A stretch of DNA of 45,697 nucleotides from Candidatus Methanomethylophilaceae archaeon (GTDB lineage: Archaea; Thermoplasmatota; Thermoplasmata; Methanomassiliicoccales; Methanomethylophilaceae), in contig SKGM01000019.1 in NCBI GenBank assembly GCA_007117455.1, forward strand, positions 1-45,697. The letters are read 5' to 3'. Shown piece by piece: positions 197 through 24,695 of this stretch (positions within the stretch are counted from its first letter, which is position 1; every line of letters begins with the position of its first letter). The position numbers and the translations under genes were made by a program. The notes under the pieces were generated by a model. That model saw only the letters and a list, made by a program, of their open reading frames with translations, searched no databases and was not told the origin of the DNA.

Positions 197-1024
197 TCAT
201 ATGTCGATCCTGATGCCGTTCTGATACACCAGATTCCTGCCTACTCTCCGTACGCTGTCCTTTCTCCCTTTCAACATCAGGAGCCTTTCCAATCCGAACC
301 CGACGCCACACCAAGGCTCCTCAATGCCATGGCTGGCATCCAGTTCATGCGGTCCAGTTGCAGCTGAAGCCACCTCTTGGCCCTCGATCTCCACATCAAT
401 CGTTGATTTGTAGACGTCTGATTCACATTCACTCAATTCATAATCCAGGCCGATGCAATCCATTATTCTGGAGATCAGATCTTTGATCTCTGACGAAGGG
501 TCGCCATCCGGCCCCAGGACGACTGCGTTCAACATAGTGAACTCTGCCATATGGGAGCCGCTCCTGCTCTCCTTTCTATAGCATGGACCGATCTCAAATA
601 ATTTGACAGGGCCCCTAAGGGTACGGCGCATATGTGCCATAACGGTATAGAGGTTCGGGGCCAGCATGGGGCGCATGCACCTCTTATCATCTATGTGGAA
701 CACCTGTTTGAAAAGCGGATGCTCCTGACCTATGCCCATTTTATCCAAAGCATTTGTCGATATTATCGTGGGAGTCTTCACTTCTATGAATCCTGATTCA
801 ACCAGCAGTGAAGCAAGGTCAGCCTCCATCGCTGAGAGTATATGTCTGCTGGGTGCAGTGGCCATATCCCTGATCGCCCCTTGGATGGCTTTTGTGCTCA
901 TATTGATACAGTGCTGGAATGTGGTCTGCCTGCGGTTCCGCGAATCAAAGTGAATCCCAGTCTCGCGGATTCCAAGTTCCCGCAACCTCTGTACCTGTGC
1001 GGGGGTGTAGGTTAGAGGCGCCAT
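197..1024 (-). CDS. pylS: Pyrrolysyl-tRNA synthetase, delta-N type
   Basis: Class II aminoacyl-tRNA synthetase that charges tRNA-Pyl with pyrrolysine. The 275-residue protein is only the catalytic domain. It lacks the separate N-terminal tRNA-binding domain of Methanosarcina PylS and has the length of the Methanomassiliicoccales form. Visible motifs include the motif 2 stretch FEIGPCYRKES, the active-site segment EFTMLNAVV and the C-terminal motif 3 GVGFGLERLL. A longer reading begins at a GTG (1031-1033), but that GTG is part of a strong ribosome-binding site GGGAGGTG, and the ATG at 1022-1024 follows it at normal spacing, so I place the start there. It sits 24 bases downstream of pylT and 11 bases upstream of pylB. 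No pylSn gene is seen in the window. Confidence 0.95.
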   Translation of the reverse strand: MAPLTYTPAQVQRLRELGIRETGIHFDSRNRRQTTFQHCINMSTKAIQGAIRDMATAPSRHILSAMEADLASLLVESGFIEVKTPTIISTNALDKMGIGQEHPLFKQVFHIDDKRCMRPMLAPNLYTVMAHMRRTLRGPVKLFEIGPCYRKESRSGSHMAEFTMLNAVVLGPDGDPSSEIKDLISRIMDCIGLDYELSECESDVYKSTIDVEIEGQEVASAATGPHELDASHGIEEPWCGVGFGLERLLMLKGRKDSVRRVGRNLVYQNGIRIDI

Positions 1025-1048
1025 ACTATGCACCTCCCATTATGTTGT

Positions 1049-1983: not shown

Positions 1984-2622
1984 ATGAGTAAAGAACAGAT
2001 ATTTGCGGACCTACGGAAGTCTATCGAGACATGGGACGTAGATCTGGCCGAGGTCGCCACAAAAGCGGCGATCGAAGCTGGGATCCCAGCGGCCGAGATA
2101 GTTGACAGTGGTCTGGCAAAAGGGATGGAAGTGATCGGGGACAGATTCGATAAGGCGGAGATATTCCTGCCTCATGTCCTCGGTGCATCCAAAGCCATGG
2201 AGAAGGCTTTGGAGATACTCGCCCCCACCCTTTCGTCAGAGGACTCTTCCTATCGGGGCACTGTCATCATGGGCACGGTCCTTGGGGACATCCATGAGAT
2301 AGGCAAGAACGTATGCTGTGCGATGCTAAGGGGGGCAGGATACAAGGTATTCGACCTCGGACCAGACACTTCTGTGGAGGATTTCTTGGAATCCGTCGAG
2401 AAGGAGAAGGCCGATGTGGTAGGAGGCTCCGCCCTAATGACCACCACCCTGATGGTCCAGAAGGACCTTGTTGATGCAGTAAAGGAGGAGAACGTAGCCG
2501 TCAAGACCATCTTCGGAGGAGCTCCATGCACTCAGGAATGGGTTGACGAGATTGGCGGGGACGGTTATTCAGAGAATGCAGCTGAATGTGTCCAATTGGT
2601 CAATAGGTTGCTAGGAAAGTGA
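1984..2622 (+). CDS. mtmC: Monomethylamine corrinoid protein
   Basis: Small cobalamin-binding protein that takes the methyl group from monomethylamine via MtmB and passes it to a coenzyme M methyltransferase (MtbA, not in this window). The N-terminal half (about residues 1-85) is the helical methionine-synthase-type cap domain; the C-terminal half is the Rossmann-like B12 domain. The motif GDIHEIG places the cobalt-ligand histidine at residue 104, and GGAPCTQEW lies in the later B12-binding part. Length 212 residues is normal for the family. A strong ribosome-binding site GGAGG precedes the ATG. It overlaps or abuts mtmB. Assignment to the monomethylamine branch rests on the adjacent mtmB, since MtbC and MttC are close paralogues. 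Confidence 0.9.
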   Translation: MSKEQIFADLRKSIETWDVDLAEVATKAAIEAGIPAAEIVDSGLAKGMEVIGDRFDKAEIFLPHVLGASKAMEKALEILAPTLSSEDSSYRGTVIMGTVLGDIHEIGKNVCCAMLRGAGYKVFDLGPDTSVEDFLESVEKEKADVVGGSALMTTTLMVQKDLVDAVKEENVAVKTIFGGAPCTQEWVDEIGGDGYSENAAECVQLVNRLLGK

Positions 2623-2627
2623 TAGAT

Positions 2628-4013
2628 ATGGCAGCACAGAGACCTATGAGCGTTTGCGACGTCTATGATAGATTCCTGAAAGGGGATAAGATGTCGGAGA
2701 GCGACTGGGATTACAAGATAATCCCGATGAACGCGGCAGAACTGAAAGCAAAATACAAACTCGACTTCGGTAGGAACATAGTGCCTGAGGACAAGGAGAT
2801 GGCAGACAGGCTCTTCCAGGCAGGAATGGAGATGCTGGTCAAGACCGGTTTCTACAACTGCGACATGAAGAGGGTCGCCAAGTTCACTGAAGAAGAGATA
2901 TGGGAAGGAATCAAGAGCACACCCACCAGCCTTGTACTCGGAGAGTACCGGGATGCGGTGAAATTCGAGCCCCGTAAGGGCAACTCGTCGAAAAAACCAG
3001 TCATACAGGGCGGACCGACAGGTGCGCCCGTCTCCGAAGATGTTTTCGTGCAAGTGATGCAGAGCTATGCCCAAGAGGCCATAGTCGACACGCTTGTCAA
3101 CGGTGTCATGTCCACCATAGAGGGCAGACCTGCCACCACCAACACTCCCTGGGAGATCAAGGCGACTATGGCTGAGCTCCGTGCTCTGAAAGAGGCGAGG
3201 GTCCGTGCCAACAGGCCTTACATGGCCATATAGGGACCTGAGACGCCGCTATCCGTAGCGGGACGTCTCGCAGCTGACCTGGTCCATTCCGGCATGAGGC
3301 CATGCGACTCCCACGAGTGTTCCCAGCTCAATGAGCTAAAACTCGACGGGGCTGCACTGAACATGCTGGCTGGCTGGACCGCCAACGGCAACACCATAAT
3401 GATGGAGCAGATGCCGATCTTCGGAGGATACTGCGGAGGCGTGGAGGAGACCGCGATCTGCGACACAGCCACGCACATAGCATCCTTCGCCTTCCTGAGC
3501 GCCAACTACCACCTGGACGGACCTATTCACATCAGGTGGGGGAACACAACGGCGAGAGAGACCATGCAGATAGCCGCACACACTGCGGCTGCGATGGACC
3601 AGAACACAGACCTCCTGATCGCAAACCAGTACTATCCAGTAGCTGGTCCGTGCACTGAGATGTGTCTTCTGGAAACTGCGGCCCAGGCGATGTCCGACAC
3701 CGCATCAGGAAGGGAACTCCTCTCCGGGTCTGCTGCCGCCAAAGGTGTCGCGATGGATAAGACCACAGGCATGGAGGCACGCATAATGGGAGAGGCTGCG
3801 AAAGCCACTGCTGGGATGGCCATCGAAGAGGTCAACCCCATCATAGAGGCCCTTGTGAGCGGCTATGAGCCCCATTATGCCAAGGCACCATCGGGCAAGC
3901 GCTTCCAAGAGTGCTATGATGTCCTTAGTGTCAAGCCCAAAGAGGAGTACCTGACACTGTATGACGGAGTCGTTCAGAAGTTGAGGGACCTCGGCCTGGA
4001 CATCAAGAACTGA
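2628..4013 (+). CDS. mtmB: Monomethylamine methyltransferase with in-frame amber (pyrrolysine) codon
   Basis: Transfers the methyl group of monomethylamine to MtmC. The reading frame is interrupted by a single TAG at 3231-3233, read as pyrrolysine at residue 202, the position known in Methanosarcina barkeri MtmB. Both halves match the family: QGGPTGAPVSEDVF before the codon, and GPETPLS, MPIFGGY, LDGPIHIRWGN and GPCTEMCLLE after it. The full length of 461 residues ends at TGA. An RNA hairpin directly follows the amber codon (separate entry). ATG 2628 follows a purine-rich AGGAAAG; a GTG at 2619 overlapping the mtmC stop is a possible alternative. A gene caller ignoring Pyl would split this into two false ORFs (ends at 3233, restart near 3294). 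Confidence 0.96.
3240..3269 (+). promoter_or_regulatory. PYLIS-like hairpin after the mtmB amber codon
   Basis: Starting 6 bases after the TAG, GAGACG+CCGCTA pairs with TAGCGG+CGTCTC around a TCCG loop. This gives 12 base pairs with one 2-base bulge (3262-3263). It is within the coding sequence. A stem-loop at this site (PYLIS) has been described for Methanosarcina mtmB; its importance for amber read-through is debated in the literature. Confidence 0.7.
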
Positions 4014-11565: not shown

Positions 11566-11628
11566 TGTATTGCAGATTTCTGCTGAAACAGTTTTTATGA
11601 AAATTTGAACCCCGCAGAGGTATCTCTC

Positions 11629-13362
11629 ATGTGTCCCAATGCAACTAAATTAAGGATTACCGACACCACCCTACGCGACGCCCACCAGTCTTTGATAGCC
11701 ACTCGGATGCGCACCGATGACATGATAGACCTGGCAAAATCCATGGATGACATGGGTTTCTGGTCATTGGAGGCATGGGGCGGTGCGACCTTCGACTGCA
11801 GCATGAGGTTCCTCGCCGAGGACCCTTGGGAGCGTTTGCGTAAGCTGAAGGAGGTACTACAAAAGACACCGATCCAGATGCTGCTGCGGGGACAGAACCT
11901 TGTCGGGTACCGCCATTACCCCGATGATGTGGTGGAGAAGTTCGTAGAGGCCGCACACCGGAACGGGGTCCAGATATTCAGGGTGTTCGATGCGCTCAAC
12001 GACATACGGAACATGAAGAAGTCCATGGTGGAGGTGAAGAATGTAGGCGCCCATCTGCAAGGCGCCATATCCTACACCACCAGCCCCGTGCACAGCAGCG
12101 CGACATTCATAGAGATGGCCAAGGAGCTCTACTCCTTGGACTGCGATTCCATAGCGATAAAGGACATGGCCGGACTCATAACCCCCCAGGAGGCGGTGGA
12201 TATAGTCACAGGCATAAAGGACGAGATGGACATAATGGTCTGTCTCCATTCACATTCCACAAGCGGCCTGGCACCGATGAGCTACCAGGCCGCGATCGAT
12301 GCGGGGGTCGACGTCGTCGACACAGCGATGTCCCCCTTCGCCTTCGGAACCTCCCAGCCCGCCACGGAGAGCATAGTTGCCGCGGTCGCAGGGACGCCCC
12401 GCGACAGCGGTCTGGACGTCAACAGCCTCAGGGAGGCCCGCAACCACTGTGTTAAACTAAGGGACAAGTACTGCGGCCTGATTGACCCCGTCTCCGAGAG
12501 GGTGGACTCCGACGTTCTGATATACCAGCTTCCAGGAGGTATGATATCCAACATGATATCGCAGCTCAAGGAGCAGGATGCCTTCGACAAACTGCAGGAC
12601 GTCTTCCAGGAGATACCCGAGGTACGGAAGGACCTGGGCTATCCGCCATTGGTCACGCCTACAAGTCAGATAGTGGGCACCCAGGCCATATTCAACATCC
12701 TCTCCGGAGGGGAGAGGTACAGCAACGTGACCAAGGAGGTCAAGGACTATGTTCTAGGCCTCTACGGCAAGCCCCCCAAGCCCATCGATGATGATGTGCG
12801 CCGGAAGATCATAGGGGATGCCGAGGTGGTCACCGTCAGACCGGCAGACCTCTTGGAGCCCATATACGAGAGCATGAAGAAGGAGGCTGAGGAGCTGGGC
12901 ATAGTCAAGAAAGAGGAGGATGTGCTCAGCTACATAATCTACCCCAGCATCGCCCCGTCCTTCCTGAAGGGTGAGAGGAAGTGCGAATGTCTGCCGCCCA
13001 AACCGGGAACGGCACCTACCGCCGGCACCATACCCGCAGCGATGGAGGTCGAGGTCGACGGGGAGATATTCTCGGTAAGGATTGTATCCGTGGACGGTAC
13101 CGCGTCCGCAGCGCCTTCCGCTGCTGACAACGCACCCCGCGGGGACGTCCCTGGCGGTGTGAAGAGCAACATGACCGGGATGGTGCTCAAGGTCCCGGTA
13201 GCCCGTGGGGCCACCGTGAAGAAGGGCGACACCTTGGTTATACTGGAGGCCATGAAGATGGAGAACCCCATCAACAGCCCCCGGGACGGTACCGTGAAGG
13301 ACATCTTCGTTGACAACGGGGACGTCGTCTCCAGCGGCGATGTGCTCATGGTGGTGGACTGA
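11629..13362 (+). CDS. pycB: Pyruvate carboxylase subunit B (carboxyltransferase + biotin carrier)
   Basis: Transfers carbon dioxide from carboxybiotin to pyruvate, giving oxaloacetate. N-terminal TIM-barrel carboxyltransferase (about residues 1-290: TDTTLRDAHQSL, EAWGGATFD, RGQNLVGYRHYPDDVV, IAIKDMAGL, CLHSHSTSGLAP) carries the metal-binding histidines HSH. The middle is the PYC_OADA domain. The C-terminal biotinyl domain has EAMKMEN with the biotin lysine at residue 543 of 577, after an Ala/Pro-rich linker. ATG 11629 is chosen because AGAGGT lies 7 bases upstream; TTG 11605 is open but lacks a ribosome-binding site. It is followed 14 bases later by pycA. Oxaloacetate decarboxylase alpha is similar, but the adjacent biotin carboxylase and lack of membrane subunits favour pyruvate carboxylase. 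Confidence 0.93.
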   Translation: MCPNATKLRITDTTLRDAHQSLIATRMRTDDMIDLAKSMDDMGFWSLEAWGGATFDCSMRFLAEDPWERLRKLKEVLQKTPIQMLLRGQNLVGYRHYPDDVVEKFVEAAHRNGVQIFRVFDALNDIRNMKKSMVEVKNVGAHLQGAISYTTSPVHSSATFIEMAKELYSLDCDSIAIKDMAGLITPQEAVDIVTGIKDEMDIMVCLHSHSTSGLAPMSYQAAIDAGVDVVDTAMSPFAFGTSQPATESIVAAVAGTPRDSGLDVNSLREARNHCVKLRDKYCGLIDPVSERVDSDVLIYQLPGGMISNMISQLKEQDAFDKLQDVFQEIPEVRKDLGYPPLVTPTSQIVGTQAIFNILSGGERYSNVTKEVKDYVLGLYGKPPKPIDDDVRRKIIGDAEVVTVRPADLLEPIYESMKKEAEELGIVKKEEDVLSYIIYPSIAPSFLKGERKCECLPPKPGTAPTAGTIPAAMEVEVDGEIFSVRIVSVDGTASAAPSAADNAPRGDVPGGVKSNMTGMVLKVPVARGATVKKGDTLVILEAMKMENPINSPRDGTVKDIFVDNGDVVSSGDVLMVVD

Positions 13363-13376
13363 AGGGGGTCCTGAAC

Positions 13377-14858
13377 ATGGCTTACTTCGACAAGATACTC
13401 ATCGCCAATCGCGGCGAGATAGCGATAAGGGTAATCCGGGCCTGCCGTGAGCTGGGCATCGAGACCGTGGCCATATTCTCCGAACCAGACAAGAACGCCC
13501 TCCATGTCAAATACGCCGATGAGGCCTTCTGCGTCGGTGAGGCCCATCCCCGCCATAGCTATCTGAACAAGGAGAGGATCCTGGAGGTCATCAACCAATC
13601 GGGAGCCGAAGCGGTCCATCCGGGTTACGGGTTCCTGGCGGAGAACGCCGAGTTCGCCAAGATGATCGAGGATTCGGGAGCGACCTTCATCGGGCCTCCG
13701 TCGAAAGCCATTGAGATCATGGGTTCCAAGATCGGCAGCAAGAAGATGATGCGGGATGCTGGCGTCCCGGTGCTGGGAGGCACCGAAGGAGGCGTCAGCA
13801 CCTTTGATGAGGCGCAGCAGATAGCCGCGGAGATAGGCTATCCGGTCATTACCAAGGCCAGCGCCGGAGGTGGCGGCATCGGCATGCAGATAGTGCATTC
13901 CGAGGATGAGCTGGAGGAGGCCATAGAGAAGGCGATGAGGATCGCCGGATCGGCCTTCGGGGATGCAACGGTTTTCATCGAGAAGTATCTGGAGAATCCG
14001 AGGCATATCGAGGTGCAGGTCCTTGCTGACAAACACGGGGATGCCATCCACCTGTTCGAGAGGGAATGCTCCATACAGAGGCGTTACCAGAAACTGGTGG
14101 AGGAGGCCCCCTGCCCCATAATGACCGAGGAGCTCCGTGAGGCGATAACCAGTTCGGCCCTGACCGTGGCCGAGACCGTTGGCTACACCAACGCTGGAAC
14201 AGTCGAATTCCTCTACGCTGACGGTGAGCATTTCTTCATGGAGATGAACACCCGTCTCCAGGTGGAGCACACCATAACCGAGATGATAACCGGTGTGGAC
14301 CTGGTCAAACAGCAGTTGGCCATAGCATCCGGTGAACCGTTATCCTTGAAGCAAGGGGATATCAAAATCAACGGTCACGCCATAGAATGCCGGGTCAACG
14401 CTGAGGATCCGATGAACGATTTCAACGCCGACCCGGGGAAGATCCTCCGCTACCGCTCACCTGGTGGTCCAGGGATTAGGGTGGACTCCGGTGTGCATAT
14501 GGGTTACACCATACCTGCACAGTACGACTCCATGGTCTCCAAGCTATGCTCTTGGGGTCAGGACAGGGACGAGGCGATACAGAGGATGCGCCGGGCCATC
14601 TATGAGTATGTGATACTGGGGGTCAAGACGACCCTGCCTCTCCATTATGCGATAATGAACAACCGCGCCTACATCAAGGGCGACACCCACACCCACTTCC
14701 TGCAGGAGCAGGACATACTATCCAAGCTTCAGCTGTACATGGAGGACGAGGAGTCCCGCATGCAGACCCTGGCGGAATCCTTCCGCCAGAGCAAGGAGAT
14801 CGCCGCCATAACGGCTGCCGTGGATGTATACGTTCGGAGCAACCAGCCCAAACAATGA
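13377..14858 (+). CDS. pycA: Pyruvate carboxylase subunit A (biotin carboxylase)
   Basis: ATP-dependent biotin carboxylase that charges the biotin on PycB with bicarbonate. It has the three-part ATP-grasp fold: N-terminal domain KILIANRGEIAIRVIRACRE, central glycine-rich lid KASAGGGGIGM, and catalytic EMNTRLQVEHTITE in the C-terminal half. HPGYGFLAEN and FIGPPSKAIEIMGSK are also standard. Length 493 residues is normal for the free subunit. Like other methanogens, the enzyme is split in two subunits. Confidence 0.95.
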   Translation: MAYFDKILIANRGEIAIRVIRACRELGIETVAIFSEPDKNALHVKYADEAFCVGEAHPRHSYLNKERILEVINQSGAEAVHPGYGFLAENAEFAKMIEDSGATFIGPPSKAIEIMGSKIGSKKMMRDAGVPVLGGTEGGVSTFDEAQQIAAEIGYPVITKASAGGGGIGMQIVHSEDELEEAIEKAMRIAGSAFGDATVFIEKYLENPRHIEVQVLADKHGDAIHLFERECSIQRRYQKLVEEAPCPIMTEELREAITSSALTVAETVGYTNAGTVEFLYADGEHFFMEMNTRLQVEHTITEMITGVDLVKQQLAIASGEPLSLKQGDIKINGHAIECRVNAEDPMNDFNADPGKILRYRSPGGPGIRVDSGVHMGYTIPAQYDSMVSKLCSWGQDRDEAIQRMRRAIYEYVILGVKTTLPLHYAIMNNRAYIKGDTHTHFLQEQDILSKLQLYMEDEESRMQTLAESFRQSKEIAAITAAVDVYVRSNQPKQ

Positions 14859-14915: not shown

Positions 14916-16184
14916 GTGGTCATTCTGGGAATCGATGAGATAAAGGAAAGGGCAGCACAGAGCAAGCACCGCGAAAACCCGTTCGTGAAGAAGATATGGA
15001 ACCTGATAAACGACCCAAAACTGTTCCAGATGAGCGCCGATGAACTCGCCGCTCTCAGAAAGGAACTGATGCGGGGTTCCTTGGCGTTCTTCCGTGACAA
15101 TTCCGACTACTATGCCAACCTCTTCGAGAGACTGGATATAGATCCTGAGACGGCGGAGAGGGAGGACCTCGTCAAGCTCGTCGTTCCTGCCGACATGTTG
15201 CGTGGAGGCGGTCAGGAGCGTTTCGTGATCGATGAGGTCGACGAGGGTGGCGAGCATTTCCAATCCAGCGGCACCACCGGAAAGGCCCCGGTCAAGATAT
15301 ACCGAAGCCCCTTGGACCTGGCCATAATGGTCAAGGCCAACGCTGACCTGTTCGAGTACGCATACGGCCATGAGCTGGAGGAGAACAAGGGGCTGGCACT
15401 CTTCATGGCCGCCCCCGAGCTCCGTAACATGCTGAGTTTCGTCGCATTCGTCGAGCTGGCATTGGAGTCCAAAGGCATCGAGTTGCTGTATGGGATGAGC
15501 ATGCGCGAGGCCGAGGAGGGTGAGACGGTATGGCAGCGACTCCAGCCTGACAAGAAGAACATCCTCAAATTCCTGAAGAGCAAGGATGAACCCAAGCTTT
15601 TCTTCACCGCTCCTGCTGGCGTCTACCTGATGTCCAAGCGGTTCAATGAGATGAGCAACCTCAAGCGAGAGGTCTCAAAGATCATAACCCGTGCACCGCC
15701 CGTGAATCTGGGCAAGGGAGGGGTTATAGTGACTGGCGGCGGATCGAAAGGTTTCGTCGACCTGCCGCCGTATGCCGAGATGGCCGAGGGCGCCCGTAAC
15801 TATTTCAAGGCCCTCTCCCGCAGCGGGGATGGTGTGGAAGCGCCGTTCATGGACGTCCTCGGTATGACCGAGACCCTGACCGCACTCATAGACCAACATG
15901 GGATGATGGGGAAGGTGCCCCATCCCCTTTCCGAGGTGTTCCTGGTCGATCCCAAGACATTCGAGCTCATCGACGAGCCCGAAAAGGAGGGTCTGATATG
16001 CATCTACAACCCCTTCGTCACCACCTGGTTGGAGGCCTTCTTCCCCGGGGACATCATGATGTACCATACCTCCGACCGTTATTACGGCAAGGAGTTCGAG
16101 TTCGGAAGGAGACTCACGGTGAAGGAGGGTTGGGACCTGCAGCGGGCATGTGGCGGAACCCTTGAGGAACTTATGGAGGACTGA
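14916..16184 (+). CDS. LuxE-like acyl-protein synthetase / acyl-activating enzyme
   Basis: Member of the adenylate-forming superfamily close to LuxE, which activates a carboxylic acid as acyl-AMP and holds it as a thioester. The phosphate-loop motif is FQSSGTTGKAPVKIYRSP at about residue 110; VTGGGSKGF and DVLGMTETLTAL match the later adenylation motifs, and FPGDIMMYHTSDR the hinge region. A lone cysteine near the C-terminus (Cys412 of 422, in QRACGGT) is placed like the acyl-carrying cysteine of Vibrio LuxE (Cys364). Start is taken as GTG 14916, with a GGGGGTGG-type stretch around it, and is uncertain. It is two bases upstream of the LuxC-like gene. Substrate unknown. It is not evidence for light production: no luciferase is present. 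Confidence 0.78.
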   Translation: MVILGIDEIKERAAQSKHRENPFVKKIWNLINDPKLFQMSADELAALRKELMRGSLAFFRDNSDYYANLFERLDIDPETAEREDLVKLVVPADMLRGGGQERFVIDEVDEGGEHFQSSGTTGKAPVKIYRSPLDLAIMVKANADLFEYAYGHELEENKGLALFMAAPELRNMLSFVAFVELALESKGIELLYGMSMREAEEGETVWQRLQPDKKNILKFLKSKDEPKLFFTAPAGVYLMSKRFNEMSNLKREVSKIITRAPPVNLGKGGVIVTGGGSKGFVDLPPYAEMAEGARNYFKALSRSGDGVEAPFMDVLGMTETLTALIDQHGMMGKVPHPLSEVFLVDPKTFELIDEPEKEGLICIYNPFVTTWLEAFFPGDIMMYHTSDRYYGKEFEFGRRLTVKEGWDLQRACGGTLEELMED

Positions 16185-16186
16185 GC

Positions 16187-17635
16187 ATGCACAAACCCTA
16201 CTGTCCTGGACACAAGATAACCTTCGATGAGGACCAGAAGACCCCGGAGATTGACAGGATCTCCATGGACACCATACTTTCCAAGGCCGACCGTCTGCAG
16301 AGGGAAGCCGCAGCAATCCCGCTCTCGGTCCGACTGAAGACCATCGAGGAGATGGGGAAGGCCTGGAAGCGGAAATGGGAGTCCGGTGAGCTTAAGGAGG
16401 TCGCGGAGAACCTGGCCATGAACACCGGCTACTCGCCCGAGGTCATAAAATTGGAGATGGCCTTCGTCTCCGAGGTCCTTGATCCCGTGAAGATGATGAA
16501 GAACCTCGATTCCACCCTCCGCGGCGGAGCGGAGTCGTTGGAGAGGATCGTTGAGATCGCCGACGGTGAGCATATCCGGAACCACCCTTGCGGTCCGGCG
16601 CTGATCATCAGCTCCGGTAACTCCCTGGTGCCCCCGTTCATACCCACCATCAGCTCCCTGATGACCGGAAACGTCACAATCCTCAAGCCCTCATTGGCCA
16701 ACTATGAGGCGGTCGTCGCTGTCATAAGCACTTTGGAGGAGGCGGTGGAGAAGACCGGCGCCAAGCCTCTGCTGGACCTGTTGGTGGTCAGCTACATGTC
16801 CCATAACAGCCCCTTGCTGGACTATCTACTGAGCAATGCGAGGATCGGTGTGGTCAACTTCTGGGGCGGCGATCCCGCCCGAGGGGAGGTCTCCGCCAAG
16901 GTCGCCAGCAACCCCCACATGCCGCGCTACTTCGCCAACGGCCCCCTGACTGGATTCGGTGTCATAGACAAGGACAGTGCCACCGATGAGGCGGCCCACG
17001 GTCTGGCATTGAACATACTGCTATACGACCAGCAGCTGTGCTCCTCTCCCACCCAGGCCGCCTTCATCGGTCCGATGGATGCGGCGAAGTCATTCTGTGA
17101 AAAGGTGTCCAAACACCTGGATGAGATCGGCCGGAACATGCCGATGGGGATATCCCACGACGGCGCCTTCATACTGCAGTGCGCCAGGAAGTATGTGCAG
17201 TTCGCGGGGGCGAAGATATTCTCCTCCGATGACCTGCAGAACATGTGGACCATCTCCTTGTCCGAGAGCGTGAGCGACCTGGACGATGCCAGCCAATCCT
17301 ATGGACCACTGGCATTCCATAACCGGCGTCGTTTCCTGGAAGTGGTCCGTGTGGACGATGCGGAACAGGTCATAGAGTTGATCAGCGACCTTCCCATGAA
17401 CAACGCCTACCGGGGGGCGGACAAGGTCCAGACCGTCGGTCTGGCCCTCAGTAAAGTGAACCTTGGGTCTGTGGTCCCGATGCTCCCATCCACGGGGGCC
17501 TATAGACTGGTGCCGATAGACGACATGTTCATGCGCAGTCCTCTGGAACCATACGACGGCATGGACATGGCCAAGCTGTTCACCTATGGCGTCTATCTCC
17601 GTGACAGGTCATTGGGCCGAGAGGTGCTGCGTTGA
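16187..17635 (+). CDS. LuxC-like acyl reductase (aldehyde dehydrogenase fold)
   Basis: NAD(P)H-dependent reductase expected to turn an acyl thioester into an aldehyde. It is an ALDH-superfamily protein: cofactor-binding stretch IISSGNSLVPPF and ILKPS, WGGD loop, and the catalytic cysteine in YDQQLCSSPTQ at residue 285, close to the Cys286 known for Vibrio LuxC. The first about 100 residues hold a LuxC-type helical segment; a short N-terminal stretch MHKPYCPGH with Cys/His is unusual. Length is 482 residues, typical for LuxC. It starts 2 bases after the LuxE-like stop and overlaps the next gene by TTGA, so the three genes form one translational unit. Confidence 0.8.
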   Translation: MHKPYCPGHKITFDEDQKTPEIDRISMDTILSKADRLQREAAAIPLSVRLKTIEEMGKAWKRKWESGELKEVAENLAMNTGYSPEVIKLEMAFVSEVLDPVKMMKNLDSTLRGGAESLERIVEIADGEHIRNHPCGPALIISSGNSLVPPFIPTISSLMTGNVTILKPSLANYEAVVAVISTLEEAVEKTGAKPLLDLLVVSYMSHNSPLLDYLLSNARIGVVNFWGGDPARGEVSAKVASNPHMPRYFANGPLTGFGVIDKDSATDEAAHGLALNILLYDQQLCSSPTQAAFIGPMDAAKSFCEKVSKHLDEIGRNMPMGISHDGAFILQCARKYVQFAGAKIFSSDDLQNMWTISLSESVSDLDDASQSYGPLAFHNRRRFLEVVRVDDAEQVIELISDLPMNNAYRGADKVQTVGLALSKVNLGSVVPMLPSTGAYRLVPIDDMFMRSPLEPYDGMDMAKLFTYGVYLRDRSLGREVLR

Positions 17636-18624
17636 AGGTACTGGTCACTGGAGCCACCGGTTTCCTGGGCGGCCACATGTCGGAGGCTCTGATCGACCAG
17701 GGCTTCGATGTGGCCGCCATGATACGCCCCAGCAGCGACACCCATCTGCTCGAGAAGCTGGGAGTCGAGCTCCGGGAAGGACATCTGGACCAGCCCGATT
17801 CCCTCAAGGAGGCCGTCAGAGGGGTGGACGCGGTGCTCCACCTGGCCGCCTATTACACCTTCTCCGGGAAATGGGAGACCTACCTGAAGATCAATGTGGA
17901 GGGCACCGAGGCTCTCCTGCGGGCCTGCCTCGCCGAAGGTGTCGGCCATTTCATCTACTGCTCATCGACCGAGGCCATGGGGCCGGTGGAGAGCATACCT
18001 GCGGATGAGGGGAGTCCCTTGAACCCCGCTTTCGATTATGGTAGGTCCAAGATGATGGCCGAGGAGGTCGTGCGAAACTACGCCTCCAACGGCATGGCAT
18101 GCACCATCCTGAGGCCCTCTGGGATATACGGGCCCAGGAACGTGAATGACGTGTCCTATTGGTTCATAACATCCTTCGCCAACAGCATCGCGTCAAGATT
18201 CATGATAGGTGATGGTCGGAGACAGGTCCAGTTCGTCCATGTGGACGATGTGGTCCAGGCACACATCCTGGCGTTGAGGAAACGCGATGTGGCCGGGGGT
18301 GAGACCTACATCGTCAGCGAGGACCGCTCCTACTCCTATGGGGAGGTCTACGGCATGTTGGCGGAGATCCTCGGCAAGAAGGCCCCCCGCATCAAGCTCC
18401 CACCCTTGCTCGCCAAGATAATGATGGCCCCGGTCCAAGTAGTCAACCATATGCTACGGAGGGAGAACTTCATGTGGCGGATCAGCACCGTGGATGCTGT
18501 CACTAGTGACCGGAGCTATTCCGTGGACAAGATAATGGGTGATCTCGGATACTCTCCGCAACACAAACTACGTGACGGTCTGGAGGAGACCGTGAAGTGG
18601 TACAAAGAGAACGGGCACATCTGA
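17632..18624 (+). CDS. Extended SDR, NAD(P)-dependent epimerase/dihydroflavonol reductase-like
   Basis: Rossmann-fold enzyme of the extended SDR family. Cofactor motif TGATGFLGGH at the N-terminus, DAVLHLAAYY, CSSTEAMG, catalytic tyrosine in DYGRSKMMAE (Tyr-x3-Lys), RPSGIYGP and VHVDDVVQAH. It resembles 3-beta-hydroxysteroid dehydrogenase/DFR-like enzymes that reduce ketones or aldehydes or epimerise sugars. TTG at 17632 overlaps the LuxC stop (TTGA), and AGAGGTG lies 5 bases upstream. Coupling to the LuxE/LuxC pair suggests it acts on the aldehyde or on the same lipid or polyketide intermediate (inference). Length is 330 residues. Confidence 0.85.
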   Translation: MKVLVTGATGFLGGHMSEALIDQGFDVAAMIRPSSDTHLLEKLGVELREGHLDQPDSLKEAVRGVDAVLHLAAYYTFSGKWETYLKINVEGTEALLRACLAEGVGHFIYCSSTEAMGPVESIPADEGSPLNPAFDYGRSKMMAEEVVRNYASNGMACTILRPSGIYGPRNVNDVSYWFITSFANSIASRFMIGDGRRQVQFVHVDDVVQAHILALRKRDVAGGETYIVSEDRSYSYGEVYGMLAEILGKKAPRIKLPPLLAKIMMAPVQVVNHMLRRENFMWRISTVDAVTSDRSYSVDKIMGDLGYSPQHKLRDGLEETVKWYKENGHI

Positions 18625-18636
18625 TGCTTCAACAGT

Positions 18637-19500
18637 TCAACTTAGATAGCCCTTCTCGTAAAGGGTCTTCACTCCCATTGATATGAGGAAGAAGGCCGCC
18701 AGGGTGAGTACGATCGAGGCTCCGGGTGGAACGTTGTACGCTATTGCCAGTACCAGACCGAGCAGGGATAGGACCAGGGAAGAGGCCACCGCTAGGACCA
18801 TTATCTGCTTCAAGTCATTGCTGAACATGCTCGCCATCGCTGCCGGTATCGTCAGCAATGCGATCACAAGAACGATCCCCACTATGTTCATCACCATGAC
18901 CGAGGTCATGGCCACCAGTATGTACAGGAGCGTATTCATCAAGGTGACGTTTATCCCTGATATCCTAGCGTGAATCTCATCGAATGTGACAATCTGAAGA
19001 TCCCTATAGAAGAAAGCCCCCAAACCGAGGACCACCAGGATCATGACCAACATGAATTGGAGGTCCTGGGAGCTCACTAGCAGTACGTTGCCGAACAATA
19101 TGCTCTCATAGGATCGGACAACAACGACATTATGATCTGATAGGTTTATGAATAGGACTCCTAGGGCCATCCCCACCACCCATAGGACGCCTATGGTGGA
19201 ATCCTCTCTCAATCTCTTGTTGATTCTGGGAGATCCGATTATCAGGGCCGAGCCGATCGCGAAGAACAAGGCTCCGAGCATGGGGTCGAACCACGATATC
19301 AGGAAGACAGATTGGAGATAATAGGCGAACCCGACACCTCCGAATGTCGCATGGGCTATCCCTCCACTCACGAAAACGATCCTCTTCACGACCACATATG
19401 TACCTATGATGCCGCATAGTATGCTGGCCAGGATCGTCGCATAGAACATGTTCTGGATCAGGCTTATTGATAGTATCGATGCCCAATCAGTCATGGTCAT
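18637..19500 (-). CDS. znuB: Metal ABC transporter permease (ZnuB/MntB family)
   Basis: Membrane subunit of an ABC-3 family zinc/manganese (or other divalent metal) importer. About eight to nine hydrophobic segments; family landmarks are GTYVVVKRIVFVSGGIAHA near the N-terminus, FDEIHARISGI in the cytoplasmic coupling loop, and VVGIVLVIALLTIPAA-like LVIALLTIPAAMAS. Length 287 residues. Its start overlaps the upstream ATPase gene by 14 bases. Order on this strand: znuA-znuC-znuB. The 3' end faces the SDR gene 12 bases away. Confidence 0.92.
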   Translation of the reverse strand: MTMTDWASILSISLIQNMFYATILASILCGIIGTYVVVKRIVFVSGGIAHATFGGVGFAYYLQSVFLISWFDPMLGALFFAIGSALIIGSPRINKRLREDSTIGVLWVVGMALGVLFINLSDHNVVVVRSYESILFGNVLLVSSQDLQFMLVMILVVLGLGAFFYRDLQIVTFDEIHARISGINVTLMNTLLYILVAMTSVMVMNIVGIVLVIALLTIPAAMASMFSNDLKQIMVLAVASSLVLSLLGLVLAIAYNVPPGASIVLTLAAFFLISMGVKTLYEKGYLS

Positions 19501-20248
19501 GTTCTCCCAGGGTTCGGTGCGGGATGCCGTGGGCGAGGAGTTCCACCGGACAATGGTATCCCAATTCCATCATGTCCGGCGTAATCAAGGGCTCATCGTG
19601 CACTATCATCCTACGGTTGAGACAGGCGATCCTCTTGACCTGCGAGGACACCACCCCTATGTCGTGGGTTACTATCAATATTGAGACGAGATCATTGATG
19701 TTCTTGAGCGCATCATATATGCAATCCTTCATCTGGGGGTCGAGGCTTGCAGTAGGTTCATCGAGAAGGAGTATCTTAGGGTCGCCCGCCATCGCTCTGG
19801 CAAGAAGTGCCCTTTGGAGTTGTCCTCCTGATAACTCTGAAAGTGTGGTTTTGGAGAATTCGGATATACCGACGATATCCATAGAATCCTTGGCCTTCTC
19901 GCGATCGATGCGGCGATAAAGAGGTCTGTACCCCTTAGCGGCCCTGGTGCCCATCAGTACCACATCAAGGACGGTTATGGGGAACCTATTGTCAAAGTTT
20001 CCTTTCTGAGGCACATACCCTATTCTCCTGATGCCTTCATCAACACCCTGCCCGAATATTCTTATCGAACCTTCCAAAGGGGGTATTATGCCGAGTATGG
20101 CCCTTAGAAGCGTCGTCTTACCGCCACCGTTGGGACCTATAATGGCGAGGAAATCGCTTTCCTCGAGGTTCATGGTGACGTCTTCGATGACGACGTTCTG
20201 GCCATACCCGGCTGTCAGGTTTCTGATCTCTATGGGTGGATGCTCCAT
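19487..20248 (-). CDS. znuC: Metal ABC transporter ATPase (ZnuC family)
   Basis: ATP-hydrolysing subunit of the same importer. Walker A GPNGGGKTTLL, Q-loop YVPQKGNFDNRFP, signature LSGGQLQR, Walker B ILLLDEPTASLDP and H-loop VTHDIG are all intact. The Q-loop sequence with Phe-Pro is characteristic of Zn/Mn importers. 253 residues. It lies 16 bases downstream of znuA and overlaps znuB. Confidence 0.93.
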   Translation of the reverse strand: MEHPPIEIRNLTAGYGQNVVIEDVTMNLEESDFLAIIGPNGGGKTTLLRAILGIIPPLEGSIRIFGQGVDEGIRRIGYVPQKGNFDNRFPITVLDVVLMGTRAAKGYRPLYRRIDREKAKDSMDIVGISEFSKTTLSELSGGQLQRALLARAMAGDPKILLLDEPTASLDPQMKDCIYDALKNINDLVSILIVTHDIGVVSSQVKRIACLNRRMIVHDEPLITPDMMELGYHCPVELLAHGIPHRTLGEHDHD

Positions 20249-20264
20249 CTTTCAGCCTCAGACC

Positions 20265-21155
20265 TCAGGAGGTCTGCCAGAAATCCTCCAAGGCATTAAT
20301 GAACTTTTCCAACTCATCCAACCATGTTAAGGACAGAGGGTTCGCAATGACTATGTCAATGTTCTTATCCTCGAACTCAGCCTTGATGGCAGAATTATCG
20401 TTAACGGGGTCGAAGGGCCTTACGAACATCTTTGTCAATGTCGCGTTCTGATTCTCAATGTAATCAACGAATTGGATCACGTTCTCAACCGTTAAATCAA
20501 TTGCAGCCTCACCTCTTGTAAGGTGCTGGATTGAGACTTCAGTGAGGTTGTAATCCTGAGCAAGATACTTCCATGCGGAATGGTACACAAGGAAATCATG
20601 GCCTGCTCTCGGGCCGAGCTTTAAATCCGCTAGGTCCTTTATCTCATTGACCCTCTCGACATAGCTGTTGAAACCGTCAATATAGTCCTGCTCGTTGTCA
20701 GGATCTAGTTCGATGAGCCCATTCTTGGTGTTGTTGGCCATTATCACCAAGTTATCCGGGGATGTCCACACATGGCCATCGCCTTCAATGAGTTCCAGAT
20801 GCTCGGACATCTTTATCATTTTAAGATTTTCAAGCTCTCCCTCTATTGTACCAAGATTGGCAGTCTCCCAACCCATCCCGGCTCCGATGTAGAAGTAGGC
20901 AGACGATTTGGCAGCACCTATGACCTGCGAGGGAGTCATGCCCTCAGGCACATGAGGGTCCTCGCCAGGCCTCACCATGTGCTCAGCTTTGACATGGTCA
21001 CCTCCTATCCATTCAACCATCTCCTTCTGCCAAGCCAATGTTACGGTGATGTGCATTCTGTCATCATCGTCAGAATCGCCTGTTAGGAGGACGACACCTC
21101 CGCCGAGTACAAGGGCACCGACAAGGATCAATGCTATGAGCTGAACCTGCTTCAT
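20265..21155 (-). CDS. znuA: Metal-binding lipoprotein-like periplasmic protein (ZnuA family)
   Basis: Extracellular metal-capturing subunit. The N-terminal MKQVQLIALILVGALVLGG is a signal/anchor helix without a lipobox cysteine, followed by an Asp-rich DSDDDD patch. Expected metal ligands are present: His in PGEDPHVPEG, His in GHVWTSPDN, His in VYHSAWKYLA; the acidic fourth ligand is probably the Asp in FDPVNDN or nearby. The His-rich loop of many ZnuA proteins is absent. I choose ATG 21155 because a TATA-like TTTTAATAATA lies 25 bases upstream, giving a leaderless message; ATG 21167 or TTG 21170 are alternatives. Family also carries manganese or nickel, so the metal is not settled. Confidence 0.88.
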   Translation of the reverse strand: MKQVQLIALILVGALVLGGGVVLLTGDSDDDDRMHITVTLAWQKEMVEWIGGDHVKAEHMVRPGEDPHVPEGMTPSQVIGAAKSSAYFYIGAGMGWETANLGTIEGELENLKMIKMSEHLELIEGDGHVWTSPDNLVIMANNTKNGLIELDPDNEQDYIDGFNSYVERVNEIKDLADLKLGPRAGHDFLVYHSAWKYLAQDYNLTEVSIQHLTRGEAAIDLTVENVIQFVDYIENQNATLTKMFVRPFDPVNDNSAIKAEFEDKNIDIVIANPLSLTWLDELEKFINALEDFWQTS

Positions 21156-21176
21156 AAATGAAATCATCAATGAAAT

Positions 21177-21207
21177 ATTATTAAAACATGATTAAGTCTT
21201 TAATAAT
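21177..21207. promoter_or_regulatory. Inverted repeat over the znuA TATA box
   Basis: ATTATTAAA (21177-21185) and TTTAATAAT (21199-21207) are perfect 9-base arms around a 13-base centre. The left arm coincides with the predicted znuA TATA box, where a bound repressor would block transcription. A second imperfect dyad (AATTTTTGA, TCAAAATT) follows at 21204-21227. The NikR-like gene is divergent from this site, so its product is the obvious candidate regulator (inference). Confidence 0.45.
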
Positions 21208-21297
21208 TTTTGACAATTTTTCAAAATTATTTAATAAGAGCTAACAAATAAGTCCAACTGGTCGGAAGAATCCGATTGAAAGGTCGTGAACAGAAAC

Positions 21298-21681
21298 ATG
21301 CCCGTTATCAGCATATCATTGAATGACAAGAACATCGAGGATCTCGACTCTTTGCAGGAGCAACTCGGCCTGAGCAACAGGAGTGAGGCCATCCGCCTCT
21401 GCCTTCGCTCGGCGGAGGCCGATCTGAAGGAGAAGATGGATCTGAGCGGCGAGGTGGAAGGGGTCCTCATAGTGGTCCATGACAAACACAACGATCTATG
21501 GCTGAACAATATCATCCATAGGAACGAGAGGATAATCAAGACTCATATGCATTCCCACTTGAAGGACCATAAATGCCTTGAGGTCCTCATAGTCCGGGGG
21601 GACTCGGAAGATCTGAAGGGCATGCTAGTGGATATTCATGGTAAAGGTGTGGCGGAATATGTCAAATTCGTGAGAGGATGA
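21298..21681 (+). CDS. nikR: NikR-like ribbon-helix-helix metal regulator
   Basis: N-terminal ribbon-helix-helix DNA-binding domain (PVISISLNDKNIEDLDSLQ..LGLSNRSEAIRLCLRSA) followed by an ACT-like metal-sensing domain. The sensing part keeps the NikR nickel ligands: THMHSH (His-x-His) and HKCLEVLIVRGD (Cys), plus an upstream histidine in NIIHRNERI. About 127 residues. ATG 21298 is used; GTG 21286 is possible and adds four residues. It is divergent from the Znu operon, suggesting it controls that importer in response to nickel or another metal. Autoregulation through the shared 21156-21297 region is plausible. Confidence 0.85.
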   Translation: MPVISISLNDKNIEDLDSLQEQLGLSNRSEAIRLCLRSAEADLKEKMDLSGEVEGVLIVVHDKHNDLWLNNIIHRNERIIKTHMHSHLKDHKCLEVLIVRGDSEDLKGMLVDIHGKGVAEYVKFVRG

Positions 21682-21850: not shown

Positions 21851-21865
21851 TCATTATTGAGCGAA

Positions 21866-23236
21866 ATGATAACGTTGTCTCTAATGGTGGATGTTGGAAA
21901 TCTATTGAGTTCGCTCTTCGCACCGATCATGGATGCTCCACTATTGGAGGCAGTACTGATCCAGATATTCGTCGTTTTCCTCTTGGCCCGTGTATTCGCA
22001 GAGGTTTTCGTTCGATTGGGTATTCTCTCACAGGTCGGTGAGATAATGGCCGGCATAACAATCGCCAACCTGGCCATCGGAGGCTTCACTCTCGCTGAAG
22101 GTCTGGGGATAGCTTGGCACCCCACCGAACCTTCAGTCTATCATGAGATATTCGAAGTCCTTGCCAATCTAGGTGTGATATTCCTCCTTTTCACCGTGGG
22201 CATGGAGACCAAATTCTGCGATCTCAAGGCGGTCGGGAAGACATCATTCACTGTGGCTATCCTGGGAGTAATAATACCATTCGTACTGGGCTTCGGATTG
22301 ATAGTGGCTTTTGACACATTCATACTCCACGACCCAAACTGGCTCGTCCATGCACTCTTCATGGCCGCGGCGATGGTGGCAACCTGTATAGGTATGACTG
22401 CCAGAGTGTTGAATGAGATGGGGGTCATGGATACCATCGAGTCCAAGATTATCGTCGGTGCGGCGGTGGTGGATGACATCCTGACCATGATAGTTTTAGC
22501 GATGGTTGTGAGCATTTTCGCCGCTCAGCAATCCGGTTCCGGAATCGACCTCATCGGTATGGGTTCCAGTATCTTGGTGGCGGTTCTTTTCGTGGCCGTC
22601 ATCATGCTGCTTTGCTCACATGGCATACCTAAGGCTACTGAGTTGAAGAGGTGCCGTCTGACTGAGAAAGGAGTCAGATGCCAAGAGAGGGATTGGCCTT
22701 GGAACATAGACCCTTTCCCCTTGGCAGCCGCCACCTGTCTAGGTCTATCCGCCTTGGCGTCCATTATAGGCCTCGCATCCATAATCGGGGCCTTCTTGGC
22801 AGGTATGTTGTTCGCTGAATACGCCCAAGAACGCCTGGAGGCAAAATTCAAGGGGATAAATGCGTTCCTAGTCCCGTTATTCTTTGTTTATGTGGGTATG
22901 AGGGTGCAGCTGACAGGCTTCGGAGACATGATCCTGCTGACCTTCGTGGTTATCATACTCGCCATAGCAGGGAAATATGTGGCAGGTTACCTGGGAGTCA
23001 TATGGACCGACAAGTCTTTAGGCCGCAAGGAGGCGAACATAGTCGGTATAGGTATGTCCCCCCGTGGGGAGGTCGGAATAACTGTGGCATACATGGGTCT
23101 CACGGCCGCTGCCATAACCCAGGAGATGTACACCGTGGTGGTGTTCATGTCCATCGTGACCGCTATGGTGGCCCCACCTTGGATGGCGAGAGCCTTCGAA
23201 GGGAAATACGGTCGGCTCAGAGGGACGGTAAATTGA
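21866..23236 (+). CDS. Cation:proton antiporter, CPA2/Kef-NapA type, copy 1
   Basis: Integral membrane protein with about 12-13 hydrophobic segments, expected to exchange Na+ or K+ for protons. The transport core includes GEIMAGITIANL, LGVIFLLFTVGMETK, AAMVATCIGMTARVL and the paired acidic residues in GAAVVDDILTM; an Asp-Asp pair is typical of electrogenic Na+/H+ members. GMSPRGEVGITVA near the C-terminus is also conserved. A hydrophilic loop of about 30 residues between membrane segments has CRLTEKGVRC (Cys-x8-Cys), shared with the second copy. No TrkA-N/RCK domain follows. ATG 21866 is chosen from the promoter spacing; TTG 21857 is also open. 456 residues. Confidence 0.9.
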   Translation: MITLSLMVDVGNLLSSLFAPIMDAPLLEAVLIQIFVVFLLARVFAEVFVRLGILSQVGEIMAGITIANLAIGGFTLAEGLGIAWHPTEPSVYHEIFEVLANLGVIFLLFTVGMETKFCDLKAVGKTSFTVAILGVIIPFVLGFGLIVAFDTFILHDPNWLVHALFMAAAMVATCIGMTARVLNEMGVMDTIESKIIVGAAVVDDILTMIVLAMVVSIFAAQQSGSGIDLIGMGSSILVAVLFVAVIMLLCSHGIPKATELKRCRLTEKGVRCQERDWPWNIDPFPLAAATCLGLSALASIIGLASIIGAFLAGMLFAEYAQERLEAKFKGINAFLVPLFFVYVGMRVQLTGFGDMILLTFVVIILAIAGKYVAGYLGVIWTDKSLGRKEANIVGIGMSPRGEVGITVAYMGLTAAAITQEMYTVVVFMSIVTAMVAPPWMARAFEGKYGRLRGTVN

Positions 23237-23324
23237 AATATCAAAGGTACCGCCGAGGCTAAAAATGTCGGTGTTCGACCGAAATCCTATTATAGCCAAT
23301 CTATTATGAAAGCGAGGTGAGACC

Positions 23325-24695
23325 ATGTCCTTCATGAACGACATAGGAGACGCGCTTTTCGATATCTTCGAGCCGTTCGCTGCAGAATCCCTGCCCCTTT
23401 TGGAGGCGGTTCTGATACAACTTTTCATAATCTTCCTTCTAGCCAGGATATTCGCCGAGCTCTTCATGAAATTCGGCATGCTTGGCCAGGTAGGGGAGAT
23501 CGTAGCCGGTATCCTTCTAGCCAATCTGGTTATCGGCGGATTCACATTGGCACAGGGATTGAACATAGATTGGGATCCGGTGCATCCCAGTGTTTATCAT
23601 GAGATATTCGAGGTCATCGCCAATCTGGGCGTCATCTTCCTGTTGTTCGCTGTAGGTATGGAGACCAAGATATGCGATCTACGTGCAGTGGGCAAGACTG
23701 CGACGTGGGTCGCTGTTCTAGGCGTCATCATACCTTTCGTTTTCGGTTTCGGACTGGTCTTCGCTTATGAAGTCTATTACAAGCCTCACCCCGACTGGTT
23801 CATTCATGCACTCTTCATGGCTGCAGCGATGGTCGCCACCTGCATAGGTATAACGGCGCGTGTGTTAACTGAGCTGGGAGTCATGGACACCATCGAATCG
23901 AAGATAATCGTTGGCGCCGCAGTCGTTGACGACATACTGGCAATGATCATATTGGCCATAGTCGTCGCTGTTGCAGGTTCCGCCATGAATGGCGGGGGAG
24001 GGGTGGACATATTCGGTATCGCATCCACCGTCGCCATCGCACTGCTGTTCGTCATCTCCATCCTCCTGCTCTGCACGGGCATACCGAAGGCCAAGGAGTA
24101 TCAGTTGTGCCGCATGACTGAGAAGGGCATAGTCTGTCAAGACAGGGACTGGCCACTGCGCATAGAGCCCTTCCCGTTGGCCATGCTGACCTGTCTGGGA
24201 CTTTCCGCGATGGCGATATCGCTGGGACTGGCAGCCATCATAGGAGCTTTCCTGGCGGGAATGCTCTTCGCGGAATTCGCACATGGGCAGCTGGAGAGCA
24301 AGTTCAAGGGCATCAACGCCTTCCTCGTGCCCTTCTTCTTCGTCTATGTGGGAATGCGCGTCGAGCTGGCCGGTTTCACCGAGATCCTCGGACTCGCTGT
24401 CGGAACGATCATCCTCGCCATAGTGGGCAAGTACCTCGCCGGATACCTCGGCGTCATCTGGACCGACAAGTCCCTGGGTAAGAAGTCCGGTGACATTGTC
24501 GGTATAGGTATGTCTCCCCGTGGAGAGGTCGGCATCATCGTTGCAGCCATCGGTCTGACCGCTGGAGCGATATCCCGTGACATGTATACCGTCGTGGTCT
24601 TCATGTCCATAATAACCGCGCTCATCGCACCACCCTGGCTGGCTAAGTCCTTCAAGAGGAAGTACGAGGACGATGCCGCCAAGATGCTCGACTGA
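23325..24695 (+). CDS. Cation:proton antiporter, CPA2/Kef-NapA type, copy 2
   Basis: Paralogue of the preceding gene, aligned end to end with it. Conserved features are the same: GEIVAGILLANL, LLFAVGMETK, CIGITARVL, GAAVVDDILAM, GMSPRGEVGI, and the loop CRMTEKGIVC with Cys-x8-Cys. The periphery differs (MSFMNDIGDALF N-terminus; Lys/Asp-rich C-terminus). GAGGTGAGACC directly precedes the ATG at 23325, so it is translated from its own ribosome-binding site while copy 1 appears leaderless. The 88-base gap has no clear TATA box, so it may be co-transcribed. 456 residues. Confidence 0.9.
   Translation: MSFMNDIGDALFDIFEPFAAESLPLLEAVLIQLFIIFLLARIFAELFMKFGMLGQVGEIVAGILLANLVIGGFTLAQGLNIDWDPVHPSVYHEIFEVIANLGVIFLLFAVGMETKICDLRAVGKTATWVAVLGVIIPFVFGFGLVFAYEVYYKPHPDWFIHALFMAAAMVATCIGITARVLTELGVMDTIESKIIVGAAVVDDILAMIILAIVVAVAGSAMNGGGGVDIFGIASTVAIALLFVISILLLCTGIPKAKEYQLCRMTEKGIVCQDRDWPLRIEPFPLAMLTCLGLSAMAISLGLAAIIGAFLAGMLFAEFAHGQLESKFKGINAFLVPFFFVYVGMRVELAGFTEILGLAVGTIILAIVGKYLAGYLGVIWTDKSLGKKSGDIVGIGMSPRGEVGIIVAAIGLTAGAISRDMYTVVVFMSIITALIAPPWLAKSFKRKYEDDAAKMLD

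Follow-up and report, generated by a model that had tools for sequence, protein, structure and literature searches.

A LuxE-like, LuxC and SDR gene trio in archaea: a candidate route from carboxylic acid to alcohol

Three tightly packed genes in a 45,697-nucleotide contig of a Candidatus Methanomethylophilaceae archaeon (SKGM01000019.1, positions 1 to 45,697, hereafter the window) encode a LuxE-like acyl-activating enzyme, a LuxC-family acyl reductase and an extended short-chain dehydrogenase/reductase (SDR). From their sequences, we lean towards viewing this trio as an archaeal branch of the LuxE/LuxC carboxylate reductase, coupled to a dedicated SDR, that would convert an acid into an aldehyde and then into an alcohol. 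LuxE and LuxC are known mainly from light production and from some bacterial glycan islands. What is new here is an archaeal, luciferase-free and SDR-coupled version of the system, strictly co-inherited; a search of the open-access literature found no publication on an archaeal LuxE/LuxC system.

The three open reading frames (ORFs) are intact and co-oriented (window 14916-18624, + strand). The LuxE-like gene (14916-16184; 422 amino acids, GTG start) is separated from the LuxC gene (16187-17635; 482 amino acids, ATG start) by 2 bases (GC), and a GGAGG at 16175-16179 (+ strand), read from the sequence within the end of the LuxE-like gene, is the likely ribosome binding site of the LuxC gene. 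The SDR gene (17632-18624; 330 amino acids) overlaps the LuxC gene in a TTGA, its TTG start overlapping the LuxC stop, so that, through overlapping translation, synthesis of the SDR would directly follow that of LuxC. Among six genomes of the same genus, pairwise ratios of nonsynonymous to synonymous substitution (dN/dS) range from 0.03 to 0.10 for the LuxE-like gene, 0.05 to 0.21 for LuxC and 0.06 to 0.17 for the SDR; such low values point to purifying selection in all three, and therefore to working genes. The gene order, 2-base gap, TTGA overlap and motifs listed in the first-pass annotation (SSGTTGKAP, Cys412, Cys285 in QLCSSP, and YGRSK) were all found as claimed. Its reading of the genes as LuxE-like, LuxC-like and SDR, translated together, is supported.

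Protein families and candidate catalytic residues

The second protein gives the clearest family assignment. Its match to the Pfam LuxC family (PF05893) scores 110.8 bits, where the cut-off lies at 21, and covers positions 5-393 of the 401-column profile. With a profile of its own family, the LuxC chain of the LuxC-LuxE complex from Photobacterium phosphoreum (7xc6_A) is the sole PDB match below 0.001 (E 1.1e-18). An AlphaFold2 model with a mean confidence (pLDDT) of 90 also has 7xc6_A as its best PDB match (template modelling, TM, score 0.77), above all aldehyde dehydrogenases (ALDHs). Judged by profile and predicted structure, the protein is a genuine LuxC-family member. Its Cys285, in QLCSSP, is invariant in 29 homologues and lies inside the region matched to the 7xc6 LuxC, and is the predicted nucleophile of the reductase.

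The LuxE-like protein displays the motifs of ANL enzymes (SSGTTGKAP at residues 117-125, GMTE at 316-319 and GD at 378-379), and its model adopts an ANL adenylating fold. Searched against PDB, a profile built from 35 homologues has the LuxE chain 7xc6_E as its best match (5e-5), while PaaK reaches 0.16. Profile-profile comparison with LuxE, represented by a small set of PF04443-positive sequences from other archaea, gives an E-value of 5.9e-16 over 330 columns, reaching the C-terminus. This alignment puts Cys412, which is invariant across the 35 homologues (QRACGG; codon computed at 16149-16151, + strand), on the C-terminal cysteine (RxC) of LuxE; a corresponding cysteine is also present in 7xc6_E. 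In luminous bacteria, the C-terminal cysteine of LuxE carries the acyl group, and we propose Cys412 as the acyl carrier of the archaeal enzyme.

Could the first two proteins instead be a PaaK-type coenzyme A (CoA) ligase and a CoA-acylating ALDH, interconverting acid and aldehyde, perhaps of aromatic acids, through free acyl-CoA? PaaK-type phenylacetate-CoA ligases do share the ANL fold and the N-terminal motifs, Foldseek ranks them nearest to the LuxE-like model (TM about 0.6), and the sole weak NCBIfam match of this protein is FlxY, a putative acyl-CoA ligase. However, profile-profile comparison with PaaK is weaker (E 2.3e-9, about 7 orders of magnitude behind LuxE) and stops at column 334 of 457, before the PaaK C-terminal domain. 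The LuxE-like protein ends about 20 residues after the hinge region and thus has no ANL/PaaK C-terminal domain, as is also the case for the 7xc6 LuxE. PaaK, conversely, possesses this domain but no C-terminal RxC motif, whereas the C-terminal cysteine of the LuxE-like protein is invariant among homologues and was lost in one genome that lacks LuxC (see below). The first-pass annotation had named membership in the phenylacetate-CoA ligase and plain ALDH families, or neighbours that are not conserved together, as findings that would speak against it. When this comparison was run, the LuxC protein was nearest LuxC rather than ALDH, the LuxE-like protein was nearer LuxE, and the trio was conserved. 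We consider a CoA ligase/ALDH pair unlikely.

The third protein has a GATGFLG Rossmann motif and an intact YxxxK active site (YGRSK, 136-140), with Tyr136 and Lys140 invariant in 29 homologues. Its nearest named NCBIfam families are HpnA (TIGR03466; 188.8 of 367.65 bits), OleD (142 of 580) and SdmB (139 of 600), all with scores well short of the respective cut-offs and with a different gene context. Among solved structures it comes closest to 3wj7, which its entry names a putative oxidoreductase; the alignment is full-length (E 1e-47) and ranks above all epimerases. It is plausible from these comparisons that the SDR reduces an aldehyde.

Combining these elements, the LuxE-like enzyme would adenylate a free carboxylic acid with ATP and load the acyl group onto Cys412. 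The acyl group would then pass to Cys285 of LuxC for NAD(P)H-dependent reduction to an aldehyde, which the SDR would reduce to an alcohol, unless it acts on a neighbouring carbonyl. Gene order, families, invariant catalytic residues, strict co-occurrence and joint loss are what we observed, whereas what each enzyme does, in which direction, and the part played by the SDR are our interpretation. Characterised LuxC and LuxE act on long-chain acyl groups. As the nearest families of the SDR (HpnA, OleD and SdmB) also belong to lipid pathways, a hydrophobic acid, isoprenoid or fatty, would be the likeliest guess for the substrate by analogy.

The likeness to the Photobacterium phosphoreum complex thus extends to the two subunit types, the adjacency of their genes, the catalytic cysteine of LuxC and the C-terminal cysteine of LuxE. 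The luminous lux system differs from the trio in several respects: the trio has a dedicated SDR as its third gene, turned up in archaea alone in the collections that were searched, and has a LuxE-like protein that falls under the PF04443 cut-off. The luciferase is also missing, as the first-pass annotation had noted for the window: no luciferase-family gene (PF00296) was found in any of the 16 triad genomes searched, with positive controls.

Several observations weigh against our reading. The LuxE-like protein of the window has no Pfam match below 0.001 and none to PF04443, the Pfam LuxE family, which is matched by just 3 of its 35 homologues (best E 1e-5). As the protein matches the LuxE profile end to end but misses the Pfam cut-off, we call it LuxE-like, not a PF04443 member. 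The last 15 residues of its model are of low confidence. The LuxC protein scores only 65.5 of the 750 bits required by the NCBIfam equivalog for the LuxC long-chain fatty acyl-CoA reductase (NF052251), so that the substrate of luminous LuxC is not transferable to it. Two loci (G252 and L094) have the LuxE-like and LuxC genes with no adjacent SDR, and the SDR may therefore not be essential to the reaction. Finally, no neighbouring gene conserved across phyla was found at the trio loci, and none names a substrate.

Distribution, co-inheritance and loss

We scanned one genome per species with exact peptide patterns, the only search that covered bacterial chromosomes, and obtained 47 loci, all archaeal by record title (titles of metagenome-assembled genomes can be wrong). 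They occur in Methanomassiliicoccales, Methanomethylicia (including Methanosuratincola), Brockarchaeota, Nitrososphaeria, Thermofilales, Zestosphaera, Sulfolobales, Odinarchaeia, Archaeoglobales, Methanofastidiosia and others. The trio is therefore a property of several archaeal lineages and is not specific to Methanomassiliicoccales. No contig named M. luminyensis is among the loci of this exact-pattern scan. Viral and plasmid searches found no homologue of the LuxE-like protein.

The first-pass annotation had asked whether the three genes always travel together. Across archaeal lineages they largely do: the E-C-SDR order is kept in 39 of the 42 named loci with enough downstream contig. A survey of the window's class (300 genomes) gave strong LuxE-like matches in 15 genomes. 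These 15, and no others, also carry the LuxC subfamily, and 14 of them have the SDR subfamily as well. The exception, G252, has a diverged LuxE-like/LuxC pair with no SDR (L220:6647-9614; LuxE about 44-50% identical), possibly a second subfamily. In Thermoproteota, the phylum of Methanosuratincola, the LuxE-like gene is present in 25 of 349 genomes; the LuxC subfamily accompanies it in 23 of these 25 and is absent from all 17 LuxE-negative genomes tested. Tree distances correlate at 0.90 between LuxE-like and LuxC proteins, 0.73 between LuxE-like and SDR and 0.79 between LuxC and SDR, values of a kind that related sequences inflate. In the LuxE tree, Thermoplasmatota sequences form one group and phylum labels need the minimum possible number of changes; the tree thus gives no clear hint that the gene has often crossed between phyla.

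The two LuxC-less exceptions in Thermoproteota are decayed loci, and several lineages have lost the trio. One of these two genomes, G527, retains LuxE and scraps of the SDR. The other, G419, has LuxE alone, with RASG replacing RACG at the position of Cys412. Elsewhere, G057 retains a LuxE N-terminus with a stop and an SDR C-terminus; in G042, the flanking genes are unchanged and enclose a broken SDR, of which the C-terminal half is left; L113 has a frameshifted, truncated LuxE as its only remnant; in G059 the entire block is gone from between an acetolactate-synthase-like gene and a UbiA gene. LuxC has disappeared from every decayed locus examined; in G419 and G527 it is missing from all of the available genome sequence. 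That G419, which lacks LuxC, has also lost the cysteine fits a role for Cys412 in acyl hand-over, but this is a single case.

Within Methanomassiliicoccales, the trio is patchy and is missing from most genomes of the most sampled family. Its strict co-occurrence, spread over lineages and repeated loss suggest that archaeal metabolism includes an aldehyde or alcohol not yet described, and the natural losses provide matched related strains for metabolite or lipid comparison. More tentatively, the trio may be an old, archaea-specific three-enzyme pathway, common to Thermoplasmatota, Thermoproteota and Odinarchaeia, that turns a carboxylic acid into the alcohol needed for some lipid or cofactor new to archaea.

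Gene neighbourhood and possible products

Pyruvate carboxylase genes lie upstream of the trio in the window, for subunit B (11605-13362, + strand) and subunit A (13377-14858, + strand), the latter 57 bases from the LuxE-like gene. We saw this adjacency only in the window's genus.

In some Methanomassiliicoccales, the trio is followed by genes for a MenA-like UbiA prenyltransferase and a radical-SAM protein. The two are arranged tail to tail, the radical-SAM protein being divergent in sequence and nearest to TIGR03961 (L033:13813-15568, L226:1296-3051, L228 and L229). They form a pair that is conserved in the order independently of the trio and could belong to a quinone- or lipid-type pathway. 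A UbiA homologue of this type is found widely across the order, whether or not the genome carries the trio, and the pair persists after deletion of the trio. Conversely, three genomes (G044, G047 and G252) possess the LuxE-like and LuxC genes but no close UbiA. We thus rejected UbiA and radical-SAM as general pathway partners. Two other candidates were set aside. Glutaredoxin and ferredoxin-thioredoxin-reductase-like (FTR) genes neighbour the trio in Methanomethylicales, but FTR is still found beside decayed loci (L214 and L215) and is therefore not trio-specific; an ABC-2 exporter pair was seen close to the trio in neighbourhoods of three kinds, but ABC genes are so common that no weight can be placed on it. 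As neighbours vary and UbiA/radical-SAM is independent, the neighbourhood names no substrate. On the flanking genes, which the first-pass annotation had suggested checking, UbiA and radical-SAM genes do follow the trio in some Methanomassiliicoccales, but no lipid-gene neighbour is conserved, UbiA being the one neighbour of lipid type. Nor did we find any kinase, glycosyltransferase, acyl carrier protein (ACP) or aminotransferase gene conserved beside the archaeal trio.

These data bear on three further explanations. LuxE/LuxC could make an aldehyde or acyl donor that decorates a sugar or surface glycan, in the manner of their bacterial counterparts in flagellin or O-antigen islands, with the SDR acting as a sugar epimerase or dehydratase. 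There is a precedent for LuxE/LuxC use outside bioluminescence in the flagellin glycan islands of Aeromonas, where both genes are found alongside genes for an ACP, a 3-oxoacyl-ACP reductase, an AMP ligase and glycosyltransferases (PMC7874193), and the SDR superfamily is rich in nucleotide-sugar enzymes. A cluster resembling the glycan-island type (LuxE, LuxC, AMP ligase, FabG-like) is also present in a related archaeon, Methanomassiliicoccus sp. (G044; L219:6080-9954), whose genome contains the trio as well. However, the LuxE/LuxC of this cluster are different, PF04443-positive sequences, none of the Aeromonas partner genes is conserved at the archaeal trio, and the SDR is closer to the putative oxidoreductase 3wj7 than to any epimerase. 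We regard a glycan role as quite improbable.

We hold just as little probability for a salvage pathway, in which the trio would reduce isoprenoid or fatty acids of external origin, the resulting alcohols then being phosphorylated into lipid precursors: the patchy distribution and repeated loss fit a conditional function, the rest being inference, but no kinase is conserved nearby. The proposal that the trio makes the butanetriol or pentanetriol backbone of Methanomassiliicoccus tetraethers, as the first-pass annotation had speculated, or another membrane-lipid part, draws on the UbiA and radical-SAM genes of several Methanomassiliicoccales, but the independence of UbiA, the absence of the trio from most of the best-sampled family and its presence in many archaea beyond the order leave this idea unsupported and highly improbable.

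A second LuxE/LuxC system is present in Methanomethylophilaceae-type genomes and a relative (L205:4742-10108, L206:4484-9857 and L207:4664-10011). It combines a PF04443 LuxE, a LuxC of about 820 amino acids fused to an AMP-binding domain and a MATE transporter-HATPase fusion, with anti-sigma-like ORFs upstream. The LuxC-related ORFs of about 820 amino acids seen in gut relatives were considered as a version of the trio and rejected, as they belong to this different system.

Other features of the window

A zinc-type ABC uptake set (18637-21681), convergent with the trio, comprises ZnuA (20265-21170) and ATPase and permease ORFs, and a NikR-like regulator (21286-21681) adjoins it. Two similar tandem membrane proteins at 21857-24695 look, by eye only, like cation/proton antiporters. 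At the other end of the window, a tRNA-Pyl(CTA) gene (1049-1121, - strand) adjoins ORFs at 197-1033 (- strand), 1984-2622 (+ strand) and 2619-4013 (+ strand). The ORFs beside the tRNA look, again by eye only, like PylS, a corrinoid protein and a monomethylamine methyltransferase. The methyltransferase-looking ORF contains one in-frame TAG, at residue 205, and is 464 amino acids long when this codon is read through.

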